From Apostichopus japonicus (taxonomy: Eukaryota; Echinodermata; Holothuroidea; Aspidochirotida; Stichopodidae), in the NCBI RefSeq assembly GCF_037975245.1, contig NC_092562.1, positions 25,293,054 to 25,357,053 of the forward strand: 64,000 bases of DNA, in the 5' to 3' direction. This document shows positions 6,001 to 60,100 of this stretch, piece after piece. The first letter of the stretch is position 1. The number at the start of each line of letters is the position of its first letter. The position numbers were made by a program, and so were the translations under genes. The notes beneath the pieces are model-generated. The model saw only the letters and a program-made list of their open reading frames with translations, did no database searches and had not been told where the DNA came from.

Positions 6001-9000
6001 CCCTTTAAGTGTAAAGTGTAGGTGTGAGCCCCTGCTTTCTTGTCAGTATGGGGGGGGGGGGTGGTCAGCAATAACCATTCCCCAAATTTCTTGAGCAAAA
6101 AATATGGTCACCTTAATTTAGTGGTGTGTCAAAAGCAAAATTTGGTAAATATAGCAAAAACAGCACAAAGTGGTTTAACTTTCCCAAATATCTAGGGCAG
6201 TGTCAAAATTCAGTTGAAAACTTCCCTTAGTTTTGTGTACGAAGTATGTGGAAGCAGGATAGAGGAAACAGAATTTGTCTCTTACAGTATTGAAAAACAA
6301 TATGACTAAAAATTAAAATAAGAAGCATCAAAAAAACTTGAAACCTAGAAAATGAGAGTGTCAAAATACCCTGTGAAACACTAGCCAAGCACATCAAATA
6401 AAACAACTGCACTTTTCTTCCCTTACAGCCTCAATATCTGGACCTCCAGCTTTCAAGGATGGAAGACAGTCCATGCTTAGTAGATCCAAAGTTCCACCAC
6501 CCCTGGCTCCTGTTAAAGGCAGAGGGAGACCACAGCAAGGAGGTCACATGACACCAAACAGAAAACAACCTCCAAGTGGTATATCTTTCCAGTCATCAGT
6601 ACTTCATGTCCACCGAGACAGCAATGATGATGACAGTGAGGTAATAATGATTGGAGGTCCGACGCAACCAAGGCCAATGTTGCATCCCTTGTCAACCGAA
6701 GACTCCAGTCGAGCAACTCCATCCAGAGGTGTTCAAGGCTTAAGGGGACTGAGGGAGATGAGAAATTCATCCCCTAATCTACCTTCACCTCCTAACACTG
6801 GAAGGGGTGCCTCGTTGATGCCAGTAAAGAGTGAGGTGAAACCTGAGAAAGGAAAGAAGAAGAAGAATAAATCCAAAAAGAAGGCAAAAAAAGATGGCAC
6901 TCTTGTAATGGCAAATGCACAAAAGCCAGTTGGCCAATTACAGCCACTGAGACCAATCCAAAATGCAGGATCGCATGCAGCCTTGACACCTATCAAGTCA
7001 CCAGCCATGGCTGCAGACATCGAATTCTTCAAGAGCATTGGTAGTAGAAAGACGACAGATCAACCAGGTAGTCCACGGTCATCAACGTCTGTTTCCATTG
7101 ATGGTAGGCGGAGCCTTACTCCAGCAACACCATTTCAACAACCAAATCTTCAACCCATCGGGTCACCCTTGTCGACATCATCTTTGCAAGTTTCAAGTGT
7201 GGACCTTCAGATGCTTGCAAGCCCCAGAGAACCACTCTCTCCTAACAACAGAGCATCAACTTTACAAGCAACTGTGAACTCTACTGTTTCACCAAGAAAT
7301 TTCCAACAAAGGCCACCTGTACCGATTGAAGATATTGAAATCTTCACTGGTCCTCGAGAAAAACTTGCTCCAGTTAGAGCAGCAGCTTTTATGCAAACAC
7401 CTCTGAAGGCTATTGGTGCTTCACAAGGTCAGGAACATGAGATGGAAAATTTACCTTCTCCACGTCGAGGCACGCTTGCACCAATAGCCCAAAACAAGCC
7501 ACCTACTTCAGTGGGCATGAACAGCGCCCTTGGACCTATTTCTCACAGAGCTCAGACCAGTACACTTTCAGAAGACTCTCCAATTGGTCAAGTCAAAGTG
7601 AATCCAGTTGGTAACAGCAGGAACATCATCAATGCACAGAGTAAGTCTCTAGAAGAAAAGAGACCCTTTGGGACAGGCACACAGGGAGGTCTTGGTCAAG
7701 GTTCTCTAAAGAGAGGTCCAGCCACTAACCCAATTCAGTCTGCACAGGAAGTGACAAGTAAGTCATACCAGCCTCCATTCAAGATGGGAAGGAGACGGCA
7801 AACCAGCGACTTCTATGACAGCACTCCAGAGGACACTGATGAAGAAGATGCCATTCACGATGAAATGTATGCCTTCGCAGGATCATCTCCAAGACAAACA
7901 AGTCCTCATTGGGAGTCCCCAACCAGTTATGGAACAACCAGGGCAGATATTATTCAGGGAAATAAAAGCAGAACTGTACCAGTAAATACGCAACTTGCCA
8001 TTGTGAAGCGCTGCAGTACAACTGGCAGTGAGGGAGGTACGAAAGTTGAGTTTTTTAGAGTCCTAGATGAGGAAGTCCCAGGAGGCGACCTTTGTGATGA
8101 TAACACTGCTGCGCTCACCCCCAGTTCATCAAGAAACACAGCTAAGTCAAAGCAGAAGCAACACCATCCTGTTGACTCTAGCGATGAGAGTTCCAAAAGT
8201 TTTGTCTTTGAATCACCAAGTACTCATCATTCATACCACACAAGTGATGAAGACACTGATGTATATGATTCACCAACACAAGAAGAAAGTGAACCAGAAG
8301 AGATCAAAGGTGAAACTTACCTCGACAAGCTTAGAAAAAAGCTATTGAAAGACTCAGAAGATCAAGACGATAAACCTCAGAACACAGACCTGGGAAGAAA
8401 TGCACAATCCCTCAAGCAGGCACAACAGTTAGACACATCGCTGGAACAACCAACTAAAAGAGATATGTATAATGCAATGGTTGCTGCAATTGCTAGAGAG
8501 ATTGATGAAGCTGACAACAAAAACCTTAATGAGCAAACCAAGTTGGCAAAGGAAGTCGATCCAAATTATACTTCTGGTGGAAGCAAAGATTCCTTTTCCA
8601 AAGAACTCACTTTTGAAGAGTCAACAGATACAGAGAACATGAGATCTGATGCAGTTAATGGGGCTATTCCGCTACAACACAATGCTAAGACATCCTTCAC
8701 AGCAAACAACATGTCTTCTACATCTAATAACAAACCTGAAACACAAAACATTGGGAACCTAGAGAAGAAAGATATTGCAGCAAAAGTTATGCAGACTAAA
8801 CCAAGCATGGCAGAAGCAACAAATCTCAAAGCAAGCACAACCTCCAGTGGGACACAATGTTTTCCAACAATGCTTAGCAGACCGATGCCTCAACAGAAGT
8901 ACACTCCAGCTCAACAGAAGATAGCCACTGGCACAAAAGAGCCGGGGTTTTCACCAGTATCTCTTCAACAATCCTCCGCCAATGCCAAAGTGCCCACAGC

Positions 9001-12000
9001 CAATGAATCAAACACTGAAGAAACTTTAACCAAGGTTCAAGAGGCAGAAATAACAATTGGCACATCAAGTACTGGGTCAAAGTGTTTTCCAACAATGCTG
9101 AGCAGAGCAACACCTCTACAGAAGAACACTCCAGCTCCTCAGCAGCCTGAAATTGTCAGAAACGGGCAAACAGCTTCAATTTCCCAAGACTCATCTGCCA
9201 ATGTCAATGCACCATCATCCAAGAAAGTAGAAAATTCCACCAAAACAGATAATGCAGCAACATCAAAAGACCAGCTTGGCACCTCAAGTGGGTCAAATTG
9301 TTTTCCAACGATGATTAGCAGAGCAACACCTCTACAGAAGAACACTCCAGCTCGTCAGCAGATTGAAAATGGTGCAAAAGGGCTAACACCAATCTCTATT
9401 TCACAATCCTCTGGTACAGGACTACCAGCCAAACAACCAAACACTGATGGAACTGTCACAAAGGAAGGAACTGCCACAGGGTCTACTGTTGTTGCATCAA
9501 CTGCAAGGGAACCTGTTAACAAAGGACCCTTTGCAGATGGATGTTACCCCAATGGAGGTAATGCAAAACAACCAAGTACCACAAGATCTGAAAATAATAC
9601 CACTGTGTCTACTGCTAATAGGCCAACAACCAATGGAAATATTGGAAATGGGAATACTATAGACAGGCCAGCTATCAAGGGGTCAGCTGCCAAAAGCACC
9701 CTTACCACAGAAGTAAGTCTTACGCCTATCACAAACGGACCAAGTGTCACAGGACATGTGACAACAGTTAAGGGACCTATCACCAAAGGACCAACTGCAA
9801 AATTACCAATTAAGAAAGAGTCCATGGCTAATGGGTCAATGACAAATGAAGGCACTGCACAGGGATCAATTACTGTAGGCCCTGCTACCAAAGGCACTGT
9901 GGCAAAAGGACAAACCACCAAAGGCCCCACAGCCAAACCAGCAAATAGCCAAGGGATGACCTTAAAAGACACAGTGACATCAACTGCACAAGAAGCAAGA
10001 AATGCTCCCACGAAGAAGCAAACCATATCTGTCACAGGAGAACTTGATTCACCATCTAAAACAAGGGAAGACATCAAAAATAGAGGAAATAAGCAGGTTA
10101 ACAGTAATGAAAAGCCAGCAGAATCACATGAAGACACATCTCGTAGGTCACAAAGCCTCTCCAACAACACAGAAGCCCAAATAAGCCACACCAAAGAAGT
10201 TGAAGCAACAAAGGATCATGTTGAAAGTTTGAAACAAAGAACAACAGAGCAGGAGTGTAATCAAACTGATGGCACAGATTCCGAAATATCCATACAAGAA
10301 ACTGAAGATGCTGAAACATCTCTCATAACTTCCATGATTGTTGAGAAAACTCAATCTGGAGAATGCAACACTAGCATCCAAAGCGGTGATGGCAATGGAA
10401 ATGTCACACAACATATTAGAACCTCAACTTCAGAAAAGTCTCACATGAGCTATACCAGCTGCAACTCTCACACTTCCAGTCACCACAGAAGCAGTCACTC
10501 TGGTAGAACAGGACATAGCCATAGAAGGAGAAGTAAAGAATCTCTCACTACTAACTGTAGAAGCGTTTATTCTGAGGGCACTAGAAGTTCTCATTGTGAA
10601 GATACTTGCTGTAACAGATCTCAACACTATTGCTGCAGAAGCAGAAGCGGAAGCAGCCAGTTAAGTAGATCTGGAAAGAGTGTTTACCACAGTCAGCGCT
10701 CCAGAAGATCACAGAATGATTGTTGCAGGAAACATGATGACACAAACGACTGGCACAGAAACACCAGTGGAAGTGCACTTTCGGATGAAAGCCAAGAGAG
10801 TTCTCCAAGAGACAGCTGTACATGTATGCATTGCAACCAGAAACGACTAAGAAGCAGGGATTGCAGAAGCATTAGTGGATGCAATTATTCTGGTGCAAGT
10901 AACAAAGGCTGGGATGATTACGAAAGTAACCGATCAACAACATACATGAGCCGATCTCAGCAAGAAAAAAGGGGTGGTGAGTGTGAAATGCTCCCACCTG
11001 AAGTCAAACAAACGGTTGGAAAGCATAGTAGACACACAGCCAAACAGGCTCGCAACAGAAACTGTTCAGATTTGGATGTCAATGTTTCAAGTAGCCAACA
11101 AACCATTTCAAATGGAAGTGATATGACCAGTGCATTCTCCAGTGATGTCGCCAAGTCAACAGATGTTCAGAAAAGGGGTTCAATGACATCAAAAAGGATT
11201 GCAGCAAACAGTGGTAACAGTACTGATGTCTCTGCATCTTCTGTTAAAAGTGAGACTTGTCCAATAAGTCCCATCAGTTTCAAGTCAGACATGTCTGGTC
11301 ACAGGATTCGTAAAAACAAAAGAGATGTCAAGAACAGCCATCGGTCTTCTAACGAGAAGAGGAAACACACTCATCGAAACCTACCAGAAAGAAACTATAA
11401 CCAAGCAGTAAATGACCTCAGAGATAGAGTACCAATAAAAGTATCACACAATAGTACAGAAGCAGACACCAAGCAAGCTGTCAAATCAAGAAAAAGTAAG
11501 GCCATAGGACAACTCACACCAGACTATCTGTATACAGCAACGGAGGAAGTACCTAGAGATAGGCAGTATATCACAAAACAGAAATCAATAGAATCTTGGT
11601 TGAGAGAAAGTACCCAGTCGGTTTCATTTACAAAAGAATCTGCTTCTTCAATTGAACCATGTCCAGTGTCATCACAAGAGGGTGTCACCATTTCTAACGA
11701 CTCTCTAAGTCTGATGAATGTGAGTGATGAACAGCTGCATCAAACTGGAGAATTTGAGCATCAAACTGGAGAATGTGAAAGCAGCTGTAAGCAAGATGAG
11801 ACTGACATCAGAGATGGTGCCTACTCTTCAAATGATGCCAACATTTTGAAATCTTCCAAAGATATGAAGATGGCATTAAAGTTAGTCAAACTGGGTCTCA
11901 TCGAAACAACAAGTGACTTTGAAGAATACAAACACAAACTCCTCATGGATGAGGTTCAAAGGCGGGAATTTTCACTTAAGGATGCTCCCTCTGCAAAAAC

Positions 12001-13741
12001 AGAAATGATTTCCCCACAAGTGATCATATGTCCATGCTCAGCATCCCACTTTCAGCCACAAACAAGGCTCCCACCTCATCGCTGCAGCAGATGTTATCTT
12101 ATGTGCAGTGAACCAGTTACATACGGCGATAAAATTGAAATTCCTGCAGACAAAGCAAAATCTTCTTACACTACCAACTTTGATGTACCCTCAAGAAAGG
12201 TAACTGAACAAGTTGAAGAGCCTATCTTCAGAACAAAAATGTTTGGTTTGACTGGTATTCCAAGTGAGGACAAAAAAGTATGGCAGAAGTTTTGTAGACA
12301 TATTCTGTCTGGCTTTAGCGAAGACAATAAAATTGGTAAATTGCCTGGTCTTACCACACCTGCATTTCAATCAAATATGAGTTCAACATCTGCAGCCTTC
12401 ATGAAGCCTACTGTATCCACGATGGTTCAAAATGACACTAACCATAGTCTATTACACAAAGCCAAACCGACTGATACAGAAGAAACCTTGTCAACCATGA
12501 CAGATTCACTCTCTGCTATAAACTCTGAAGATGTATGTGCAGGACACATTCAGGAAATTCAAGCACAAAATAAGAAAATTCAGAAATTAGAGACTCAACT
12601 TGAAGAACTGCGGAGGGAGATGAAGCTCGAGCAAGTTCAAAAGGAAAGTGAACTAGTGAGAATTCGGAGCCAGCGCCAATATGACAGGGAAGTGTTTCAC
12701 AGAAAGTTGAGACAAGCAAAGAAAAATGCTGAAGTTACCCATAATAGTTATCAATTTGCTGTTGATGAAGAACAAGAAGATCTAGACATCATCTCTTTGA
12801 GTGTATCTGATAACGAAACCTTCAACATGGGCCTTGAGAGCAAAAGTTTGAGGGAAACTGTCACACAAGTGTCTGATCCAAACCAAATAGAGAGGGACAC
12901 TCTGTATTCCAGTACAAAAACGTTTAGGAGAGGATTCCAAGTAGCCCAAACAGATGGGAGGGCTAAAGACAGCAAAAACAACGAGTGGAATCTGAAGAAT
13001 GAAGAAATCTCTACATTCAAAAGCAATGGCGATAAGTTACAGGAAATGTTAGAACAACACAAACAGCGACTGCAAGATGCCAACACAAGTAAATTTAGCA
13101 GAGAGGATAAATTCAAAGGTGCCTTAATAGGACAGTCTGAGAGCTATGCTAAGATTTCTCACCTAGTGATTGATGATCAGAGCCTTCAGAACGACCATCT
13201 CAATGAGACATCGACTGTAGAAGCACTAACAGCATCCCTTGACATCCTGAAAAGAGATAATACAGAGCTAAAATCAGAAAGTGAGGTTAAGGACAAAGAA
13301 ATATGGGAATTGAAAAAGGAGAGACTAGACCTCAAGGATCGAGTGTTCCAGTTGGACAGAGAACTGTTTGATACTCAAGACAAACTAATCAAGAAATCAG
13401 CAGTAATCACTGATCTAGAGAAGACCAAACAATTCTTAGATAATAAAGTCATTCAGCTAGCAGAACAGCAAAGAGAACACAATATCATTATGAGCAGGAA
13501 GAACCAACTGTTGATAGAAGGGAAGAGATCAGGAAATGATTTGAGAGAAAAAATAGAGAGATTGGAAGATCACCTTCATTTTCGATGTAGGATCAACAAC
13601 AACCTACGAGATGATAAGGTCTTACTAGAGAAAAAGCTAGCACTACTTGAGTGTCAATATGATTGTGCCTGGAATGAGCGTGATGGAAGCTACAACATGA
13701 TGAAGCGAAAACTTGACACGTCATCAAGTGAAAGAATTTGA
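3022..13741 (+). CDS. Large low-complexity protein with C-terminal coiled coil (2494 aa, three coding exons)
   Basis: Model: 3022-3119, 4600-4673, 6429-13741. All junctions are GT-AG (donors GTAAGT at 3120 and 4674; acceptors CTCTTGCAG and CCTTACAG) and phases agree (98, 74, 7313 nt). The ATG sits directly after an acceptor. I do not recognise the protein. Visible features: residues 1-430 are rich in Ser/Pro/basic residues with a repeated LxP[IV] motif; a Lys-rich patch lies near 125-140; three tandem ~73-residue repeats with core CFPTM[LI]SR lie near 866-1035; a Thr/Lys/Gly/Pro repeat tract follows to about 1240; a His/Ser/Arg tract with Cys pairs lies near 1395-1540; a Cys/His cluster lies near 1915-1945; coiled coils lie at about 2095-2165 and 2318-2490. 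There is no signal peptide or membrane segment. A scaffold linked to cytoskeleton or centrosome is possible but is inference. Confidence 0.88.
4152..4513. mobile_element. TTAA-flanked miniature inverted-repeat element
   Basis: The left end TTAAAGGCATTGAAGACTCG (4152-4171) matches the reverse complement of the right end, TTAAAGGGTGTGAAGACTCG (4494-4513), at 17 of 20 positions. Both ends carry TTAA, the target site of piggyBac-type transposons. The 362-bp element has no transposase. It explains the 107-codon plus-strand ORF at 4032-4355, which starts outside it and runs in. It lies in intron 2 of the large plus-strand gene. Confidence 0.72.
5160..5262. repeat. Three imperfect ~34-bp tandem repeats next to a G-rich tract
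   Basis: The phrase CACTGAA-ACAGTATGAAAATATAC is repeated three times. It is followed at 5260-5310 by a run of G-blocks (GGGGAGG, GGGGGG, GGGAGGGGGAGGGG) able in principle to form a G-quadruplex. Both lie in the intron before the 7.3-kb exon. Confidence 0.6.
8840..9420 (+). repeat. Three ~73-residue tandem repeats inside the large coiled-coil gene
   Basis: The core CFPTM[LI]SR followed by TPLQKNTPA (MPQQKYTPA in the first copy) occurs three times, near 8853, 9075 and 9296. That is about 73-74 codons apart and in one reading frame. Between cores each unit carries a Gln-Gln segment, a Ser-rich SSAN-like segment and a GTSS lead-in. Copies two and three are closer to each other than to the first. 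It reads as coding-sequence duplication within one exon. Confidence 0.8.
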
Positions 13742-17442: not shown

Positions 17443-20400
17443 CTACACATCCATGGTTGGAGTTACTACAGTCAGAGAAATAATGTGAGGCACTTCTTCT
17501 TCAGATTTCATTCCCTGTGTTTGTATAGAGTTTTGTGCTTCCACATTGCCTTCGACTTGAATTACGTTATGAACTTGTACATTGCCTTGAGCTTGTAATG
17601 CTGCTTGCATTGGCATGCCTCCTTGCAGTTGTAGTACTGCTGGAGTCTGTATGCTCCCTTGAAGTTGTATGCCCCTTTGTACTTCCATGCCCTGTTGAAG
17701 TTGTATGCCTTGCTGAAGCTGTATAACTGTTGAACTCTGCAAGTCCTCCTGAGACTGTATGCCTGCTTGTGTATGCAGGCTGCCATGCGCTTGTGTGGTG
17801 CTTTGATTCTGCAATAGCCCTTGGGTTTGTACCACAGTTTGGTTCTGTAGCTCTCCCACCACCCTGATAACTTCAGGCACAGCCTCGATTGCTCCTTCTG
17901 CCGTTCCTCCACGGACATCCATCTCTTTCTGATGTTGCCCTTGGTTATCACCTTCACGTTTGTTCGCATCACGAGCTGCTTGGATTTGGAGGGATTTTCT
18001 GATATACATCAGTGGCCTGTAGGTAAAGGATGAGAGAAGAACAGGTAAATGAAAAGAAAGAAGAAAAATAAGCTAGTTTGTACTTTATAAAGTCATCTGC
18101 ACACCACCTTTGTTTGACAAATAATGCTCATCATCAGTGTTTCATCAATGACTGGCTCTTCTGGTAGAAACACCACTAGGTCTTTCTCAGGATTCAGACC
18201 CTTCAGAAGAAACAAGAAACTTGGTCAAACAAAGACAACATATGTTTACAATGCATTAAACATTTGTCAAGGAAAAATGGTGGACGCCCTCCGTGGGTGA
18301 CCTGCTGTATGCTTGAAATGATAAAGAGTCAACATGACATAGCTGAGTTCATAAACAATTAACATTATGATACAGGCCTGGATTAAGGAGCCACCATCTT
18401 CAGTGACTTAGTATTCTCAAGTACATTCACAGAATCAATGTACATCCACTCTACATAGTCACATTAACAACATGAGAAGACAATAATGTGGATCCAATAC
18501 TTACTCTCCGGGATGATGTTTCTTCATGTGACCCCAGTAGGTTGTTCTATCCCGCCAACTTTTATTACACTTGTCACAACAGTATGGCTTCTCTCCAGTA
18601 TGGATACGCTGATGGGTATTTCGAGTGTGGCTGGTCTTGAAGGTCTCCGTACAAAACTTGCATTTATAAGGACGCTCCTGTGTGTGAACCCTCATGTGGG
18701 CTTCCAAGGAACCCTTTGAGACAAATTTCTTTGCACACACCTCGCATTCAAATCTCTTTGCACTGGTGTGCCTGAGCATGTGCTCACGTTTGCCAGACAG
18801 TCTTAAGACTTTCTGACAAACAGAACAAGTAAAATATTCATTTCTGTGAACGCTCATGTGCCCTCTTAACGACTGGGGCCTTAATCTCTTGTAACACACT
18901 TCACAGTACAAAAAGGCGCTGTTTCTCTCGTCAGAATTGGCACTTTCTACGTCCTCAATCCCTGCAAATGGGTTTCTTAAGGTCTTTTTATTTTCACCAA
19001 AATGTGACCTTTCGTGCTGTTTCCTCGAGTGATCCTGACTGTAACTTTTGGAACAGTAACGACATTTGTAACGGATGCCGCTGTGGGTGTCCATGTGCCT
19101 TTGCAAGTTAGAACTGCAGAGAAAGGCTCTTCCACATACAATACAGACAAAGTTTCGTTCCCTTTCCTCTGGTGCCTGATGTAAAGCTACCATGTGATGC
19201 TTCACGTTCTTATTGTTTAAAGGAGCCCCACAAATTTCACACAAGACAAAGTTAACCCCCTTCATGTTCTGATACTTGTGGTACTTCCTGTTGAATTCTG
19301 CTTCCTTGTGGTGTTTGAATTGTCGGTACTTGTCCATCCTCGCCTGGTCTTTCTTATTCAACGGACCTTGAGCGTCCCCCGAAATGATTTTCGCAGTGTA
19401 CCTATCTGTCTCGGTAGGTCCAGGGTTAGCGTCTGTTATAATCCGTAATGGCTCATGAAGGACTCCGTCACCACCAGACGTGGAGTTGATGAAACCTTCC
19501 AATGTTTTTAACAAGACCTGCTCTTGTTCTGTAGACAAAGTGTTCTGTGGGGCATCAGAGAGCATGGTTATGTAATTGGCTCCACTGGCTTCACTCACGA
19601 TGGTACCGTCATGAGTTCCCAACACACCCACCCCTTCTACATTCATATACGTATTCCCATCTACGTCAGTGAGTGTCACCGTGGAATTAGCCGGGAGACC
19701 TAGACTGCTCGATAGAAATGAGTTCTCTATCATAGCACCTGTATCCATGGTAACTATATTTTTACTACTCGCAAGTCTCTTGCTCAGAGTACTGGGACTG
19801 GACTCAGAGTTCCCATCTGCAGCAACCTCTACAGTATTTCCAACATTCTGTTCGTCAGCCACGGCTCCTGTAAGCTTGTCTGAAATTGGCTCCAACAGAT
19901 CTTCATCTTCTACTTCAGAGGCTTCCTCTTCATTTGCTTCTCCATCCTCCTCGTACTGTTTCTCAAAATCATCTTCCTCTGGCTTCTCTCCCCTACCATT
20001 CTCTGTTGGACATGCCTTCTCTGCATCTCCAGTCTCATCATGACTTTCTTCATCATTTTCTTCTTCATCATCCCTTGTTTCATTTCCTTTCACAGTCTCC
20101 TCTGATCTTTCTTCCGCCACTCCTTCTCTCACAACCTCTTCTGACTCCATATCTGTCACCTCCTCTTCCTCCTCTGCTTTGCTTTCAATGGCAGTCTGTT
20201 CTTCCAATTCTTCAATCACTTTCTGAATATCTTTTACTTTTTTAAACTTTGTTCTCTTATGCCTCTTCCTCTTTCTACAGACGGCATCTTCCTCCATTTC
20301 CAAATCCGCATCCAGATCATTTTTGACGAGCCCAGTCAGGTTTATATCCTGGTAGAAGCTTATCACATCTGCTCTTTCCATGGCTTTGCTGAATTTCATA

Positions 20401-22277
20401 GCATGCAGGCTCCCATCATTATCATCTTCATTCAGTTTATAGCCTTGGCATGGACAGGTCACCAAGCAGCCTTCTGTGACACTGTTTTCAGTGTTTAGCC
20501 AGGAGAACAGTATTGGCCTCTTGTTTCTGAGGGTTCGCACTTGGATGTGGATCTCTCCCTGGGGAGAAAAGAAGTTAAAAAACAGATTAAGTAAAGATGT
20601 TGACTATTAACATGAGCTGTAACAGTAGCAACTAGCAGTACAAGTTACTTGCTATTGTTCAGAACTACTGTATGATTTAACCATTTCAAGTTCAAAGTAG
20701 TTTTCAACTTCTTGATCATGTAATTTAACATTCTTCATATGATCTTACAATTCTCACCAAGGAAGGAGAGACATTCGGTAAATTGCTATGTATTCACGAC
20801 CAAATTATTTTAACCTTCCTAATCCCAATTTTGTCTCCTTATGACTCATTCAGTCCATTCTACCAATCCACACAGTTTACATCTCTTGCACACCTTTCAT
20901 TACCTGCCCCCCTTCCCCATCCCCGCCCCCTCCCCTCCTCCCCACATATTGATCTCCTGCCTCAAATCCTCTCACAGCCCTTTGTTCGCTCTAACACTTT
21001 TTTTGTGAGTATTGTGTAATGTGTCTGTTTGTTTGTGTACTTGTCTCATGTCTGTTTTCGTTCCAGTATGCCTCTAAGTCTAAAGGAGTCTGTGCTAAGA
21101 TAAGACCCTCTTACTTTCATATATTTACAAGGTACTGTACAGTACTTCATGAAAACATGTTTAACTCTCTTTGATTTACAATACAAAATGGTATGCATGT
21201 TAGTGTACTGTACACACTTTCATCTGCAAGCATCAAATTAGGGTGAGGGGAAAATCTAACATAGAAAAACCTGTTTGTAACTTTCTTCAACATCATTGAC
21301 AATTACATGCATAGATCTCTTAAAGGCCAACTCAGGCAAATGTTAGTGTTGGTAGGTCTTACAGTAGTCCAATGAAAAGAAAAGATGTCGACAGAACATA
21401 CTGTACTGTTTGTAAAGATATCACAGTTACTTTAACTTACTTGTGCTGAAACTCTGGAATGCTCCTTTAAGGCTTAGTTTATGATGAAGAATGCTCTTCA
21501 GAACAAATCTAATTGTTAATTAGGTTAATCTTTTGTTTTATAAATTCTGATATTTCAATTAAAATAGTGCATTTCCATATCAGAAAACAATAGTTGGCAT
21601 GTGACAATTTGCAAATTAATGTCTGTCCTTGTCCTTGACAAATTTGTAACACATGTATTGCAAACATGTTTCATTGAGACTACAAATAGTATAAAGTTTC
21701 CCCATATTTGCTTTTGAAGAAAATTTGATTGATGACGCTCTGAACATTAATGAACCTTTTCCCAAAAGCACAACACAATATGGTGTGGAAGGAAAATTAC
21801 GACTGACCGTAGGAAAGCATTCGACAGAAAATGGAATAGGTCATGGAACGGTAAACACTATCAATAATACATTATATCATGATATTAACATTTTACAACC
21901 CGACCAAATAACTGTAGCTCAGCAAGATCAAACAGTGCCAACGTGAGTGCATACTGTACACTCCCAGGGAATAGCTTACAGTATCCTGTATCACTGAGCA
22001 AAATGCTATGCAAAATAGTCAACTTGCAATATAAGTGCAAACATACAAAATAGCTTTTATTTACAGGAAGCATTGTAATAGTATAAAAGAGAGGAACTTC
22101 ATAACCTCCAAAACTACTGTCTTCACAAAGTTTCAACACTCAATACTTCCCTGCACTCTCCTGTTACCACCATAGGTACTACTTAACAACAAAAATCAAT
22201 TTGAGTAAAACAAGTGAGTAAAATATTGCCATTTGGCTTACCATTTTGATGCAGACGACTACTGTTGTGTATGTCAT
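17443..22277 (-). CDS. Eight-finger C2H2 zinc-finger protein with Gln hexapeptide tail
   Basis: Model on the minus strand: 22277-22242 (12 codons), 20558-18505, a tentative exon 18219-18103, and 18016-17443. The start exon has acceptor TTTTTTTTCAG before 22312, an in-frame stop upstream of ATG, and donor ATG|GTAAGC. The next acceptor TTTCTCCCCAG is in phase. The second exon encodes a basic stretch (about residues 108-121, possible nuclear signal), a strongly Glu/Asp-rich region (about 121-235) and eight C2H2 fingers (about 450-695), with TGEKP-type linkers near the end. Its donor GA|GTAAGT is in phase 2. The 18.1-kb exon keeps the frame, but its donor is weak and the last intron short (about 86 bp). 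The last exon has 191 codons including 19 Gln-rich hexads. A sequence-specific nuclear regulator is likely from the fingers; no orthologue is recognised. Confidence 0.8.
17506..17847 (-). repeat. Nineteen contiguous Gln-rich hexapeptide repeats (18-bp period)
   Basis: In the last exon of the zinc-finger gene, residues fall into 19 uninterrupted six-residue units of form Q-x-Q-x-x-aliphatic. Examples are QTQGLL, QLQQGI, QLQGSI, QAQGNV and QVEGNV. Position 1 is Gln in most units and position 6 is Ile, Leu, Met or Val in most. The coding DNA has a matching 18-bp period. The regular spacing argues for a repeated fold or interaction surface rather than a random poly-Gln tract. Confidence 0.9.
18103..18219 (-). 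other. Tentative internal coding exon of the zinc-finger gene
   Basis: After acceptor TTTGACCAAG the reading frame required by the preceding exon stays open and contains the plausible segment NPEKDLVVFLPEEPVIDET. To meet the phase of the last exon the donor must be the weak GT at 18102-18101. A better-looking GT at 18107 would be out of phase. A second acceptor 12 bases downstream (TTCTTCTGAAG) would instead give an early stop and a protein ending right after the last finger. Both isoforms are possible. Confidence 0.4.
21320..21470. mobile_element. Short TTAA-ended repeat, copy 1
   Basis: It begins TTAAAGGCCAACTC and ends GCTCCTTTAA. Internal blocks (AGTCCAAT, CTCTGGA-TGCTCC) match the sequence at 43587-43678. 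The termini share TTAAAGG with the element at 4152-4513. It is non-coding and lies in intron 1 of the zinc-finger gene. Confidence 0.5.
21720..21942 (+). other. Orphan exon-like ORF on the opposite strand of a zinc-finger gene intron
   Basis: A pyrimidine-rich acceptor (CCCCATATTTGCTTTTGAAG) precedes 21720 and a strong donor (CCAAC|GTGAGT) follows 21942. The frame between them is open for 73 codons and begins and ends in phase 2. The product contains segments such as LNINEPFPKS and HDINILQPDQITVAQQDQ and matches no family I know. No partner exon was found on the plus strand nearby. It may be an exon of a nested gene, a pseudogene relic or chance. Confidence 0.3.
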
Positions 22278-32603: not shown

Positions 32604-39515
<6,912 letters not shown>

Positions 39516-46319: not shown

Positions 46320-47430
46320 GAAAAAAAAAAAAAACATTTTACTGTAGCACAGACTCCCTGTCAGACCAAGGTTAGTCTGATCCATATGACAGTCTGAAAT
46401 TGAACCCACTAAGTACAGACTTTAATACTGAACCCCATTCAGAATGCACTCTGAAACACACCCACGTTAATTTACACCATACAATGGAGGCTGAAACAGA
46501 ACCCACTCAGAACAGACTCTGAAACACACCCATGTAAGGTATCACCATATAACAGACTCTCAAACAGAACCCACTAAGTACAGACTTAAATACTGACCCT
46601 CATTCAGAATGCACTCTGAAACACACCCACTTTAATTTACACCATACAATGGAGGCTGAAACAGAACCCACTCAGAACAGACTCTGAAACACACCCACGT
46701 AAGGTATCACCATGTAACAGAGTCTGAAACAGAACCCACTAAGTACAGACTTTAATACTGACCCTCATTCAGAATGCACTCTGAAACACACCCACTTTAA
46801 TTTACAGCATACAATGGAGGCTGAAACAGAACCCACTCAGAACAGACTCTGAAACACACCCACTCAAGTATCACCATATAACAGAGTCTGAAACAGCACC
46901 CACTAAGTACAGACTTTAATACTGAACCCCATTCAGAATGCACTCTGAAACACACCCATGTTTATTGACACCATACAATGGAGGCTGAAACAGAACCCAC
47001 TCAAGTATCACCATATAACAGAGTCTGAAACAGAACCCACTCAGTACAGACTCTGAAACACACCCACGTTAAGTATCACCATATCCTGTAACAGAGTCTG
47101 AAACAGGACCCACTCAGTACAGACTCTGGAACACAACTGACTCAGAAGTTCAGAACAGACTCTGAAACACACCCACATAAAGTATCAACAAATAACAGAG
47201 TCTGAAACACACCCATGTAAAGTATCACCATATAACAGAGTCTGAAACAGAACCCACTCAGTGCAGACTCTGAAACACACCCACGTAAAGTATCATCATA
47301 TAACAGAGTCTGAAATAGAACCCACTCAGTACAGACTCTGGAGCACAACCGACTCCGAACAGACGCTGAAATACACCCACATAAAACTACACCCTACAAT
47401 GGAGGCTGAAACAGAACCCATTCAGAGCAC
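46320..47430. repeat. Minisatellite with 165-bp higher-order units and shorter subrepeats
   Basis: The block CATTCAGAATGCACTCTGAA starts at 46436, 46601, 46766 and about 46930, giving a period of about 165 bp. Within and after these units the phrases CAGACTCTGAAACACACCCA and CAGAGTCTGAAACAGAACCC alternate at roughly 50-70 bp. Minus-strand ORFs here (47142-47348, for example) are translations of the repeat. Confidence 0.9.
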
Positions 47431-51100: not shown

Positions 51101-54100
51101 CATGAAAATTTTTGGCAGACTTGACATAGAATTTTCAGTATTCAGTTAGTCCATGTGAATGATTAACCAAGACCTGTCCAATGTCTTGGCAATCATTCAC
51201 AGTGTATAACGGCCCGGTAATGAAAGACTCAGTCAGTTTAAAGGGGTAGGGTGGGAATGGAAGGGATGGTAGTTGCAGGGGTCTAAGTTATCGTCCCTTG
51301 ATATTGGCCGTACTGCCCCTGGAGAGTTGATAGTGGTAACACATTAGCATAAATTGTATTGATGTAGGGGGCAGAGGGGGGTGGGGGGAGGAGGGTCCAA
51401 TAATTCACCTCGTTGGATTGTCATCAAACTCAAAGATATCCACAGATGTCTTGCTCTCTGGCCAGGCCCTCACTAAAGCTTTCAGCAACACATAAACAGT
51501 GCTTGAATCGGGGCAAACCTGCAGTAAGAGATGGTGACAATTGATTGACAAAATTCAACATGAAACGAAAAAGACTTGACAGTTTAGCATATTCCAAAAG
51601 TGTAGGATTACAGACGCTGTGTGGAACGAAGGGATGACACCACCGAAGGTTAGGTGATCGCTCAAAGCTCAATAGCTACTGCTTGCTGAAAAAAAATGAA
51701 AATATTGTAGCAATATTTCATACCAAGAGCTCAGGTTTGATCAGTTTAAAGTTGGATATTCTCGAGTGGGGGCCCGGTTTCGACTAGCCTCCATAGAGCA
51801 TTTCAGCAGGCATATTCACCAACCACTGATTACATCAGAACACATCAAAACATATCAAATATTTAAATTATATTAATTATATATGAGAGACACCCATAAC
51901 CATTCATAACATTAGAAGTGACACAACTATGAAGAAAGAAAAAAAAAGGGTCGCAGAAAGACTGTGACGTGATTGGAAATAGTCTCATGGGCAAAGCATC
52001 CAACTTACATCTAGAATGTTCATGTCATAATCTGTGAATGAGATGTACCGTTTGCCCCAAGTAGCTCTCTTACAGATGGCATCGCAGATGTAGTGCTCTG
52101 CGTCGAGAGTGATCTGACGAACCTCGATACACGGATCCTGAAAAGAAATTTGTGAAAATGTTAGGTCTACTATTTGTAAGTACATGTTATCACATCACAC
52201 TTGAGACAAACGTATCTCTGTCACCAGAAAGTGGACCTCCGTGTCATTTATTAGTTTTTTAAGTTTTCTTTTCAGTGTGTTTCTCCTTTTTGAGATATTT
52301 TGAAAAGATCTTTCTTTCTATCACAGAATCAGACCCCCCCCACTCCCTCCCCCCCCCCCCCAAAAAAGGGAAAAAATGTTGTTCTCTTTCATTTTTGAGA
52401 AGAACCTATTCTCCCTTGAGCGTTACAAAATTTGCAATCTTTGTAGAACACTTACTGGGAGGTTACAAATTCAGAAAGAGAAAAAGCGATTGATTAAAAG
52501 TCTGTGCAAGCAAAGTATTTCACAAACTAGTGGGTTGGAAAAGGATGATGTACGGAGGGGTATAGTGGAGAGGGCATTGGGTGGTGGTTGGGAGTAGGGA
52601 ATCCATTGAAAAAATACTTTGTAATTGGAATGTAAAAAACAAAATGTGGCAATTTTGAGGAACACCCACCTCGGGAGACGCTTTAGACGATTTCTTCAAA
52701 GACGCCAGGTCGTACGGCCCTGTAACATGGATTGGAACCATGTTGTGGTAATCGGGTCCATAATCTTGATGAGAGAGATAGAAACGTTTACAAATGTAAG
52801 CTTACATTACAAACTGAAATTAATATGGCAATGGAGGGTGGGTAAGAAGAGTGGGTAAGAGGCGTGGGTAAGAGGGGTGGGTAAGAGGGGTGGGTAAGAG
52901 GTGTGGGTAAGAGGTGTGGGTAAGAGGTGTGGGCAATCGAAGTTCAAGTACGTTGTAATTCATAACTTATGACAGTATTTAGCTTTGATTACTTAATCCC
53001 ATCATCAATCCCACTCCCCCTCCAAGATACCTTACCTGGTACTTTCCCATACTATACAGGAGTAAACGATACGGGGAGGGGGTTCGATATCAGGGGGGGG
53101 GGAGTGGTTGTACCATTGGTGGTCAAATTCCTAGGATCCTATCACTTACTGTCATGATCAACATTTCCATTATTCTCAATGGACCCCTTCTCCACAAATC
53201 TTCTCAAGGCGTAAAATATCCGCTGCATGTTACAGGTGCAGTCCTTGATGGTTGCGTTGCTGCTCTGAGTGTCGTCAAAGTCCGGGCAGTGGTACGGGCA
53301 GGTTCCGTCCAGTTCGCTCCCGATACTGCTCTTCCCGTCCGACGTCTGCGAGGCAGCGTCGAAGGCGAACGTCAAACCGCCCGTCCGTTCGGCCCGGTGG
53401 AGGTTTTGGAATATACCGTTCGCGATGGGGGTACACGAGGTACCCGAAATATTGCATAGATCCGAATTGCATAGAGGTGACTGCCTTCCACTTTTGGCAG
53501 CTTCGGGAAAACCTTGGTAGCTCCTCGCTGACTCATTTCCGTTTCCAAATTCACATTTGCCACCACCGCTGCGCGGCGACTGTCTCGATTCCAGAACATG
53601 CTCCCGCTCCTCCGAGAGAGGTTCCGCCTCTCCCAGCGGATGACGGAAGTCATCCTCTCCACCAGAGGAGATATAGTCTGATAAATTGCACGGGCTGGTT
53701 AAGTGATCTAAGGCCAAGTCGTCTCCGTCTTGACGATGGGAGGCACTTTCAAACACACACGGCTCGGTGCTGGAGTCTATGGAGCATTCTTGGTTTGCCT
53801 CAGGTTTGGTGCCTGTAACGTGAGTTATCTCCTGACATAATCTGCAGGTTTGACAACCTGCTTCAAACACACTCTGGATGGAACAGGACTCCACAGTTTG
53901 TTTCCCTTTGTCACCTTCGTCCAGCATATCCAGCATGTCCCTCGACTCTCTAGGGGTCGGTTTGTGGCCCCCCTCCTCGGCTCTGTGGTGACATTTCCTT
54001 AACCTCAGCTGCACCTTTTGTATACTTTTGGTCTTCTTTGCAAATTCAAATTCGGAACTTCCCAACGAATCCCCACATCTGCCGTCCGACGGACTTTCGC

Positions 54101-57100
54101 AACTTTGAAGCTGTTCCATTGTGGAGTGAAAATCTCCATTGGAAAGTGTCCTCCTAGGAGGTTTATTTCTCGATTCGCTTTTCCGGGGAGTGTCTTTGAA
54201 GGAGAATCTTCCGGCGGACGGAGAGAACACAGCATCGGATACCTTACAGAGGTTGACCGATAAGGCAATAAGGGTATCACCAGAGTTCAGAACCACCACT
54301 CCATCCTTGCGCATGGAATGTATCGGAGAGAAACCAGGGAAAGGGGGCGACATTTCGAACCTGGTGTGAACTGCATAACTGTGTTTGAGACAACAGGGTG
54401 GAGGAGGTTCCACAAAGGAAACAGGACCGAACTCGTCTGCCAGTTCAGGGGGTATATCACCAAACGGCATATCTACAAAGAAAATTAGGTAAAAAAAAAA
54501 ATTAAGAAAAAGAAAAAAAAGCAAGTAACGTTGGAAACTTGAAAACGAAATGTTTGCTGCGAATAAGAAGGGATAAATCCCACAAATCTCCCACAAAGAA
54601 AGATTATTCAGCTATTCTTAGCATTATCATCTAATTATTGAAAGGCAAGGACCAAATGCAAAAATTCAGTACTGCCAGTGTAGTGACCAGCTTGGTCATC
54701 AGGTCTTCCATGTGATGATAAGAAACCAAAAACCAAGAACTGGTCATCCACAAATGAATGGAATTCAAAAACAGCATCTGTAATGATTAACATCAGATGA
54801 TGCAGACAGACACCTCTCTTTATCACGGAAAAATAACATGACCAAACAACTGAATATCACTCACCCTCCCCATCCTGTCCCTCTCCCCTCCCATCCTGTC
54901 CCTCCCCTCCTGTACCCTTCTAATGCCTTCCTATCCAAAAGTTGTTAATATTTAGCCTTTAGGAATTCTAGCAGATTTACCAAGCTTTCGTAAGCTTCCC
55001 TTTTGGCCAAAGCTTTATTAATACATTTCATGTTTAACATGATTTGTGAAAGCGGTGGTTAAACCTTGCTACCGTAATTCCATTCAGATGTTGTATTTTA
55101 TCTCCCCAAAGAAGAGCAACTTCTGTCTATGTTCTCTGACGACCTGCATAATTAACAGAACCTGCAACCCTTGATCAAAGATTGTGATCACTCATGCAAA
55201 ACAAAGTTTCAAACCTGAACTTGGGTACCCTAACAAAATATCTTGCTTTTCCCCAAGAATTTGACTGATTTGAAAACTGACAAGCTCAGAACAGAATAGC
55301 AAACTACTTCCTTTCGATCAAGATGCATTCATCATAAACGCTATTTAAAGTTTATATGACTATCAGCTGACAGATCTATAATATTAACCCGCATCCCTGC
55401 CTGGTCTATGGTAGTCTCCCGAATGCTTGATATTGGTGCAGGTGGGGCACGGAGAATACTGAGGGACGGCCGTGATGGTCACATAGCATGCATTCATCAT
55501 GTACACTATTTAAGGTTTATATGACTATCAGCTGACAGATCTATAATATTTACCCGCATCCCTGCCTGGTCTATGGTAGTCTCCCGAATGCTTGATATTG
55601 GTGCAGGTGGGGCACGGAGAATACTGAGGGACGGCCGTGATGGTCACATAGCATGCATTCATCATGAACACTATTTAAGGTTTATATGACTATCAGCTGA
55701 CAGATCTATAATATTTACCCGCATCCCTGCCTGGTCTATGGTAGTCTCCCGAATGCTTGATATTTGTGCAGGTGGGGCATGGAGAATACTGAGGGACGGC
55801 CGTGATGGTCACATAGCATGCTAACTTCTCGTCTGGGGTAGGCTTACACGAGGCACTGTGGGTCAGCCATAAAAAACAGGAGAAAAGGAGGCAATTGTAA
55901 CTGCCATTCGATATGACTGTTAAACTGTTTAAACTGATAACTGAGACAAAGAAGAATTAATAAAAAATAAAATATTTAAAAATGCAAACGTTTTATAATT
56001 ATTACAAATCTCTGTCCATTTAGTCTTCTTCGTCTTTCAGTCCATAATCTTTCGACTGATAACAAGACAATTTTTCGTACAGTACAGTTGACAGTAAGAA
56101 TCCACTGAAGTTGGCAACATTGTGACCAAGGCTAACGAGTTTTAACCACTGAAGTTGGCAGCATTGTGACCAAGGCTAACAAGTTTTAATCACCGGTATA
56201 ATGCAATCAGCATTTCATGATTCGATCCAATGTATGTGAAATCACAGTTGAGAATAAGAAGAAGCATAAACACATGTCTTAAATTAATTAAGGCGCAGGT
56301 CTACACAGTGCAGCACTGTAGGGAAATTTTATGTAGCCTGCAAAAGAGTTTTTGAAATCTTATTATTTGTAACCTGCAGAACTGCATTTCCCATTGAATG
56401 TAATCTGAACATTTTGGTCAAAGGAATGGATTGGGCAGAAAATGTCATGTGTGGTTCTCACAACCAATTTTGTACCTCTCCTCACCCCCTCCCCCCTCCT
56501 TACTTGCCCACTTAGGCTATGCAACTGTACCTCAAAATCCTCTCTTGAAGCTTGAGCATTGAGTTGACAATTTCAATCGTCTTGGCATCACTTAAGGTAA
56601 GGTTAGATTACAAGTCATCAAAGTGAGAAACATTCAAATGATTTTAATCACCGAGTTACCAACCAAAGATTAACTAGGCAGATATTCTTGCCTTGATTCC
56701 ATTCTCAATATCTTGTTGCTCAGGCGTTTTTATTAATTTCAATCTCACATACCACACATTTATATACAAACAGCAGAACGTTCATTAGCAAAGTCACTTG
56801 ACTGACTCGTTCTTTCTTCAATTCAAACAAGGCATTTCACTACTCAATCTACTTGAATGGAAATGTGTCCAGATCTCAGGCAAAATGTTGCTATATAGCT
56901 TATTGCAAATATTCAGCAAAATGTCCTCAGAATCAAATATATTTAGCAAGTTTTAGCTACCAGCCATAAACGAGTATCTTTGTGTCATCGGTCGGCCAGC
57001 TGCAGACAGCTAGATGGAGAGCAAGGCTTATCTTCTCCTCTGCGAATAGTTGAATTTCAGACACCTGTGGAATCGGAAAAGGAGAGTGAGATAAGGTACC

Positions 57101-60100
57101 TTGATTTATTCAAATCAGTACAAATATTCAGGAGAATTATGCATCATGTGATAATGGATTCATTGTTATTTAATCTATGTCATGCAAATGGGGGTGATGA
57201 CAGGTCCATTAGATAAAGGCAAAGATGTTGTTTAAACTGATGACAGTTAGCATGTGAGGGAAGAGGGTTCAGTACTTCGGCCAGTCATAGTTAAGCAGGG
57301 AAAAAAAATCCACTTTCTAATTCGAAATTAGTCATCTTAGTCGAGTTTAAATCGTTCAGCGGTTTCCCGTGACCTGACAATGGTTATGTCCAACCCATTT
57401 ATTCTCTGCTGGTTTATGGATTGTGCCTTAACTTCCTTCCATGTGGATATATTACTTATTGGCGAATATACATAATACAATAATGTGCACTGTGGTATAC
57501 AGTAGGATATCTATATGTAGACCACAGGCACAGAGAGTTAACCAATAAGACAGAATCTTCAGATGAAGTTGGTCCCCTTTCTCGACACTACCTTTCCAAA
57601 ATTTTATGGAACAAAGTAAAAGGAAAACTTGAAGCCAATAAACTTGATTTGTTGTGGAACTTGCCTTCACCATAGGTTGTCTGTCTCTAAATTTCCACCA
57701 GTGAAGCTTGTAAGAGTAACAGGGCATAGCGCTATCTTCACCAAAGTCCAAGACCAGCGTGTATGATATCACAAACTGTCCATCTTTGCTAAATCCCATA
57801 AAGACATGCCTGTGTGAAGGTTATTTTTAAGAAAACATTTAAATTTCCATTGGCATACCTTCCCTACCAGGGCTGAGGGAGTTCCTTCCTTTAATTAATA
57901 TGACTTTAACTATATTTATAAATATATATCTTTCATGGTCAACAGGCAGCAGGATTTGCCCTCAGAATAAAATCATTGTGAAAGGTTAAATGGTTTTGGG
58001 AAGTACTCCATATGTTTAAGTCTCTGGTTCTCAATAAGTTGAAAGTATATACAGTATCACAAACATTGCTCAACTTTTACATCAATTGGTATATGGGAGG
58101 CGGTCACTGTTCCTTTTCCAACAGACAAACACCACAGGTCAAAGTTTTCTATGGCATAAATGAGAAGGCGACCACTGGTTGTTAACTTGAATACCTGTGC
58201 AAAGCAACCATGATACAACACCACAAAATTTTGTATAGCCCGAGTGCGAACATGAAAGTATATTATGTCCACAACATGGGTCAAATAATTAAACTTCTGC
58301 ATTGCAAAAGTTACAATTGTTTTTTCTTTTACAAATAAATACAAGGCCATCAACTTGGATCACATTTATTTTCGATGGTCAAATTTGTATACATGTCCAA
58401 TATTACCAGTACCTCGAATGGCCTGGAAAAGAGCTCTGGCCGTCTGAAAACCACAATTTAGCAGTATCGAACAATCTGACGAAGACTAAAGATTACAATG
58501 ACCAAAAAAAAAAAAATGGTGGACATTATGCACTGCTAATTTTATTAGCTGTTTTGTAAAATGTCTTTCAGGACTTCAACTAAATATTTTAATATTTGTG
58601 GGTTTTTTTGGCATGTGGTCACAGTAATATCCTGACAGGACCAGACAATTTCTGTGACCCTGGATTTGATAGTTTGACAGGATTTTCCAGTCCCTAGTTC
58701 CTTTTGGCATCCCATATTGTACTTGGTTCCCCCCCCCTCCTCCCTCCCAAAAAATACAAAAAAATCTTATGGCTCCTCAACATGAAGCTACTAAAACATG
58801 ACACCTACCCATCTTCCAGCAGAGTGTTATGGTCAACAATATCCTTGAGTGGTACTGCCATCCTTCCTGGTATCCTTCCAAACAGAGACTTGCACACTGG
58901 AAAAGCATGGCGAGTGGGATGGACACTTCCTCTGAGCTGTTTCAGGGGAGAAAAAAAGGGGGGGGGGGGAAGGTGAAAAGGACAAAGTTCCATCAACAGT
59001 CATTTCTCTGGCTAAATTAAGGTAAAGTTTACTAACATGTATTGAAACTTTATTCTGAAGAATATCTGGCAATACAGTATATGCCTAGTTTAGATTTAAC
59101 ATTTCGAGTAACTTATATTATCAATTGATATTATAACTATAATATTTATATCAAAATAAAACAAAACTGGTAGCAAACTGCTTATCCATAAAAGAGCCTG
59201 TGTAAGACGATGTGTTAATTAAAGAGGGTCTGACATTTCCATCCTAACAGGATTTTCTTCAGAGGTTGAAATATTTAGATATATATTACTTAAAATCAAA
59301 GTTTATTTACAGTGTGCAATAGCATTTAAACAAGTTTGGTGGAGATGAAGAGCTGTGCAGCTCGATCATATATCATGCACTAGGGTGGAGGGAGAAGGTT
59401 AGGGTTAATTTTATGTGAAATTTATCCAATACCTTTTCAGGTAATTATCTTTAGTGGTTGAATACTCTACCTAAATCCAGCCTGATTAAATTTACAAAAT
59501 GCTTATCCAAGGTATTTGTGATGGACAACTAGGCCTAGCCTATTTAATGTGCAAACTTGGCCAACTTCTTCAGTTTTCCCTAGGCTATGCAAGTTCGGAG
59601 AAATAGCAGAATACCCCGCAATTCATATACACAGGGTAAGCAGGGTATGCTGCAATTAAGCAGCAAGTTCCTAAGTAATCATTGTGCCTAGGGCAAATAA
59701 AAACTTATTATTACAATTTTTAGTGAATGTTTCAAAAGTTTCCTAACATTTTGATTTGTGTATACCATTAATGCAAAACTTTAATACATGGACCAATTTT
59801 AAAAGAGTAAAAGTAGGCCTAGCAAACAAGTCACGTTTACAGTGAGTATTGGAAGTTAGTTCCACTGAGTGAGAGCTTTGTGTAGGCCTAAGGTACTTTT
59901 CAACATTTACTGTAGCCTAGGTGCTGAACTGATAACAGTTGCGACTTTTGGGGTAGGCCTAGTAAACGCAAAACTTACAAATCCGATTGAGTGAACGTTT
60001 GGCTAGGTAAACGTAATTCTTGGTTAGGACTCTGGGGTCGAATAGATTGGCCTACAGTAGCCTAGGCTTGGCTTGCTGAAGCCTAGTCAGAGTCTGACAC

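Follow-up and report, generated by a model that had tools for sequence, protein, structure and literature searches.

A ruler of nineteen glutamine/aliphatic hexads in the predicted C-terminal tail of an eight-finger C2H2 protein from Apostichopus japonicus

The locus described here raises the question of what a long, evenly spaced array of glutamine-containing six-residue units may do at the end of a putative zinc-finger regulator, and whether it is an ordered stack that polymerizes the protein on DNA, a glutamine-rich activation domain of a more familiar kind or a tolerated product of repetitive DNA. The window, i.e., the whole stretch of 64,000 nucleotides that was analyzed, has a G+C content of 39.6% and a CpG observed/expected ratio of 0.53 and is animal-like DNA. 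The features that make up the locus are collected in Table 1.

Table 1. Elements of the proposed zinc-finger gene and of its hexad array, with positions in the window
Feature	Position	Strand	Basis or remark
Proposed first coding exon, ATG to GTAAGC donor, phase 0, MTYTTVVVCIKM	22242..22277	minus	By eye: splice sites, phase
Large exon: acidic region and eight C2H2 fingers; donor GA/GTAAGT (slash, exon border)	18505..20558	minus	Pfam, splice sites
Last exon: linker, hexad array, acidic end, stop; acceptor TACAG/G (slash, exon border)	17443..18016	minus	Coding scan, splice phase
Two extra hexads, AVPEVI RVVGEL	17848..17883	minus	Upstream of the array; aliphatic position kept, Gln not
Nineteen gapless Gln/aliphatic hexads, 114 residues	17506..17847	minus	Reading of the strand, shuffles, register windows

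The hexad array is real. Its 342 bases encode 114 residues that divide into 19 six-residue units without a single gap, exactly as had been stated in a preliminary description of this DNA. The same description spoke of a strict Q-x-Q-x-x-aliphatic period and in this point it was somewhat overstated, as only eight of the 19 units fit Q-x-Q-x-x-[ILVM] completely, the remaining eleven including QSSTVI, PMQAAL, EAQNSI, QNQSTT and QTQGMK. Counted by position, Gln is found in 15 of the 19 units at position 1 and in 14 at position 3, and one of the residues I, L, V or M occupies position 6 in 17. This last number was reached by none of 100,000 composition shuffles, the best of which attained 14, and the same number of shuffles failed to match the Gln parity of 27 (odd minus even positions). 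When windows of four units lying wholly inside the array were compared, the best joint register of Gln and aliphatic residues was identical in 15 out of 15 cases, each scoring 8 to 11 of 12. When the 3857 stop-free stretches of 114 residues in the six frames were examined, the top aliphatic score outside the tail exon was 13 of 19, in a stretch overlapping an AT microsatellite, and the top Gln score there was 8 of 38. With 31 Gln and 31 I/L/V/M per 114 residues the array has the composition of a Gln-rich activation domain; aliphatic residues are many and the longest run of Gln comprises just two residues.

The array is predicted to form part of a larger protein. Joining of the three exons listed in Table 1, of which the first is the least certain, yields a model of 887 amino acids in which the splice phases agree, the joins are free of stop codons and the array is in frame with the acidic region and the fingers. 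Between residues 126 and 250 of this model, Asp and Glu make up 36–52% of each 25-residue block. The eight fingers are of the C2H2 type and conform to C-X2-C-X11/12-H-X3-5-H, with the X12 spacing in five and the X11 spacing in three of them. Pfam assigned zf-C2H2 (3.7e-14, 52.7 bits at a cut-off of 25.2) and zf-C2H2_4 (4.3e-20) to the finger exon, at most five stretches lying above threshold individually, and the BTB family was absent from the results for this exon. A search of solved structures matched zinc-finger chains, e.g., from ZNF568 and CTCF. When codon usage was scanned along the window, the tail exon ranked third with a score of 19.9, a value that on its own cannot pick the frame of the array because another minus-strand frame running across it scores 18.4. 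Both alternative minus-strand frames are in fact open over most of the array (148 and 101 amino acids), and the frame presented here was chosen on the Gln/aliphatic pattern together with the splice phase.

Splicing of the hexad exon to the eight-finger exon is supported by this gene model, in line with the previously suggested connection of the array with the fingers and the acidic region. It is very improbable that the last exon lies outside the finger gene or is restricted to one isoform, with the segment at 18108–18203 (minus strand) serving as a cassette or as an alternative end. This segment is situated between the finger exon and the tail exon, encodes 32 stop-free residues (KGLNPEKDLVVFLPEEPVIDETLMMSIICQTK) and is flanked by possible AG and GT sites, and one weaker pair of sites around it would, as judged by eye, preserve the frame. 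If its better acceptor were spliced to the finger exon, however, translation would stop after two codons (likewise by eye), the segment scored too low to be listed by the coding scan, and direct joining of 18505 to 18016 combines agreeing phase with a good donor and a good acceptor.

Several further features were noted in the window. Ten of the 43 additional open frames listed were scanned against Pfam, and six of these were without a match at E 0.01. On the minus strand, two DCAF15_WD40 pieces at 53142–54611 and 57452–57820 (5.5e-10 and 1.2e-14) indicate a DCAF15-like gene. On the plus strand, a C-type lectin match in Pfam (37732–38136) is preceded by a weak Calx-beta match below the cut-off (37251–37610), and the order of Calx-beta and C-type lectin at 37251–38136 resembles that in FREM1-type proteins. 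The plus strand also carries an uninterrupted reading frame of 2454 codons (6377–13741), which is of low complexity and internally repetitive, has an end that looks coiled-coil-like by eye and matches no Pfam family at cut-off. Large minisatellites, each with a period of 165 bases, are located at 46391–47003 and 55323–55821.

Codon usage within the array is informative about its origin. Six of its seven Ile codons are ATA, whereas the two long reading frames of the window use this codon for 31 of 126 Ile (p = 0.0019), eight of its twelve Gly codons are GGC, compared with 28 of 173 in the background (p = 0.0003), and 14 of the 15 I/L/V codons in column 6 end in a purine, compared with 221 of 458 in the background (p = 3e-4); outside column 6 a purine occupies the third base in 6 of 12 I/L/V codons. 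As skews of this kind mark shared descent at the DNA level, they argue for tandem duplication, and this must be old rather than recent because the similarity between neighboring units hardly exceeds that between distant ones. Unit-to-unit DNA identity is about half throughout, amounting to 0.506 for neighboring and 0.487 for distant units, and on the level of residues the identity at a lag of six (0.250) falls even below the mean of the column shuffles (0.293). A recent minisatellite was considered and is ruled out by these same figures. The array would have arisen by old, in-frame tandem duplication of a unit of 18 or 36 bases.

Since that duplication, the columns of the hexad appear to have been treated differently. 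In the Gln columns 1 and 3, pairwise identity is 0.80–0.89 for the first two codon bases and 0.47–0.56 for the third. Gln was thus kept while third bases became mixed, for which reason the hexad pattern looks selected, in agreement with the earlier notion that the tail is not plain poly-Gln. Values for pN/pS between units are 0.13 for column 1 and 0.35 for column 3, as compared with 0.90–0.98 for columns 2, 4 and 5, and have to be taken as a guide and not as an orthologue test, given that the units compared belong to one array and offer few synonymous sites (pS for column 1 is 1.15 and thereby exceeds 1). Column 6 has a pN/pS of 0.95, and as the middle codon base T is nevertheless retained in 17 of the 19 units, this column seems to retain hydrophobicity rather than residue identity.

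These data also bear on the possibility that the array is an 18-base coding minisatellite, i.e., a Gln-rich filler that is merely tolerated and has no further function. The residual codon skew does reflect duplication of DNA, Tandem Repeats Finder reports an 18-base period within 17648–17724, and a census of protein repeats states that short tandem repeats favor protein ends and that tandem repeats are enriched together with disorder (PMC7230257). We nevertheless consider a mere filler unlikely, because the near-equal similarity of neighboring and distant units speaks against a recent array and because Gln has been retained during the mixing of third bases. Searches for orthologues in viral and prokaryotic collections, where misses say little, gave three pattern matches for a part of the finger exon and eight for the tail, all of them in viral contigs, as well as 76 for the whole finger exon in genome contigs, and none was confirmed.

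The reading that we favor, and that we consider probable though far from assured, is that the tail functions in activation and multimerization as a Gln-rich domain of the Sp1 kind which originated from the old duplication and in which the alternation of Gln and hydrophobic residues has been held. Mean hydropathy over positions 1 to 6 is −3.38, 1.25, −3.23, −1.14, 0.46 and 3.28, and the resulting contrast of 3.18 was equaled by none of 20,000 shuffles. Such an alternation fits an extended amphipathic strand. Motifs of the type [ILVM]-Q-[ILVMA]-Q occur five times in the array, all in the form [IL]-Q-[LA]-Q, while the mean of 5000 shuffles is 0.73 and their maximum six. In Sp1, according to a review, the sequence 464-WATLQLQNL-472 is the site of interaction with TAF4, which proceeds via disordered Gln-rich domains and is accompanied by no significant conformational change in NMR (PMC11946086). 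A further study reports that G-quadruplex-dependent condensation of Sp1 requires its transactivation domains, that these are predicted by AlphaFold to be disordered and that condensation is lowered by 1,6-hexanediol (PMC12397910). For the Drosophila GAGA factor, the Gln-rich C-terminus has been linked to multimerization and to the formation of amyloid fibers (PMC3701498). As such a route has been reported for these two Gln-rich regulators, it is by analogy plausible that the tail drives self-assembly of the protein encoded here.

For the sea cucumber protein, we infer disorder, partner binding, activation and self-association of the tail. Its eight fingers would position it on DNA, and the extended, mostly disordered tail would present many similar, weak contact sites composed of Gln and hydrophobic residues. 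By means of these it might contact other copies of the same protein as well as Gln-rich co-activators such as TAF4, and selection would act on the alternation of Gln and hydrophobic residues and keep a bulky aliphatic residue at every sixth position. Some points speak against a domain of the Sp1 kind. Five LQLQ-type motifs are few. Short insertions and deletions that preserve the frame should be tolerated by a disordered domain that works through its composition, yet the 19 diverged units show none, a hint that the spacing may be needed.

The preliminary description had likened the array to a solenoid or an amyloid-like stack. In such a structure the hexads would build an ordered beta-solenoid or a cross-beta stack, either bactofilin-like or with a 12-residue repeat, by which the regulator would polymerize on DNA. 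The strict register in 15 of 15 windows and the amphipathic, beta-type alternation of hydropathy are in line with it. Furthermore, the Bactofilin profile matches the array with 19.5 bits (E 0.0012) over 54 residues, the top Bactofilin score among the 20 sequences scanned, and the longer frame with 17.8 bits (E 0.0041). The score for the array is, however, lower than the curated cut-off of 27.9 bits and does not place it in the family. The profile also responded to decoys, of which 19 were scanned (11 column shuffles, four unit-order shuffles and four residue shuffles, the first two kinds, 15 in number, keeping the hexads): four of the 15 hexad-keeping decoys were matched with 12.7–16.6 bits, namely three of the 11 column shuffles (12.7, 13.8 and 14.0 bits) and one of the four unit-order shuffles (16.6 bits), and none of the four residue shuffles was. 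The unit-order decoy with 16.6 bits was in addition matched by the FapA solenoid profile (17.3 bits), and one residue-shuffled decoy matched the unrelated Pilin_N (E 0.013). As decoys match too, hexad pattern and composition alone are sufficient to attract profiles of the Bactofilin type, although the true order still scores highest.

A triangular beta-helix has three strands per turn and a turn of about 18 residues. Identity at a lag of 18 is not raised in the array, the observed value being reached by 8820 of 10,000 column shuffles (0.260 versus a shuffle mean of 0.292), which is weak evidence against such a helix as a turn need not repeat its residues; the period data give no support to a triangular helix with three hexads per turn. 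The hexapeptide signature of left-handed beta-helices, [LIV][GAED]xx[STAV]x, occurs once in the 114 residues, so that the array does not qualify as a member, and position 6 is followed by Gln at 14 of 18 places; what the array shares with these helices is the six-residue period and the aliphatic anchor. An excess at 12 residues does exist. Of 20,000 column shuffles, 121 attained the observed contrast of lags 12 and 24, and of 10,000 such shuffles, 346 attained the value at lag 12 taken by itself, but the excess was picked post hoc and lag 24 taken by itself lacks significance (2265 of 10,000). Gly is present at position 4 in units 11, 13, 15, 17 and 19 and absent there in units 10, 12, 14, 16 and 18, but units 2 and 4 also carry Gly at this position, out of step with the later alternation, and as the two-hexad rhythm was noticed after looking we treat it as a lead only.

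Structure prediction by AlphaFold gave no confident fold, with a mean pLDDT of 41.1 when the tail exon was modeled by itself and of 50.5 for a 54-residue part aligned with another, in a single-sequence mode that cannot tell disorder from an unrecognized fold. A first model shows strand starts spaced 10–14 residues apart between residues 98 and 160, whereas a second has two strands of 10–11 residues and two of 3–4 and lacks a hexad stack. A sequence search of the PDB with the array returned no match at E values up to 10, and the one match obtained with the tail exon (E 0.2) lies outside most of the array. With low pLDDT, no period of 18 residues, a signature found once and decoys that match Bactofilin, the solenoid or amyloid-like stack has found no support, and an ordered beta-solenoid or cross-beta stack in general appears rather improbable to us. 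The more specific proposal, in which the array is an ordered, self-polymerizing beta-stack with a 12-residue repeat and the regulator forms a defined filament on DNA instead of a loose condensate, would be a long shot.

Comparison with known systems shows where the tail is unusual. Sp1, which was compared by description, is likewise a C2H2-finger regulator with Gln and interspersed hydrophobic residues, carries an LQLQ-type motif and has been linked to self-association (PMC11946086, PMC12397910); eight fingers here stand against three in Sp1, and the six-residue spacing is fixed here. The Gln-rich part of the protein described here lies C-terminal to the fingers. In Sp1 it precedes them. The GAGA factor resembles our protein in being a zinc-finger regulator with its Gln-rich part at the C-terminus, but its polyglutamine comprises long Q stretches (PMC3701498), whereas the hexad array has runs of at most two Gln and aliphatic residues at fixed spacing, and the Pfam results for the finger exon include no BTB family. 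Bactofilin (PF04519), which the array resembles by its weak match over 54 residues, is a polymerizing domain of about 110 residues that is described as typically absent from eukaryotes (PMC12448750), and the array differs from it by a score below cut-off, by decoys that match as well and by the missing 18-residue period. Among the literature matches listed, the titles and the beginnings of abstracts name no zinc-finger protein with such Gln hexads, in a body of texts that mostly excludes subscription papers. The combination had first been presented as unfamiliar. This holds for the fixed spacing of the hexads, but not for zinc fingers together with a Gln-rich multimerizing region, which had already been described.

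The unusual part is therefore the even hexad ruler and not Gln-rich self-assembly of regulators as such. An ordered stack, if it were true, would provide a transcription factor of an animal with an unusual means of assembly. It is common to regard Gln-rich activation domains as dependent on composition, and a natural Gln-rich domain with an even six-residue ruler, preserved although its own units have diverged deeply, would allow a test of how important the spacing of the hydrophobic residues is.
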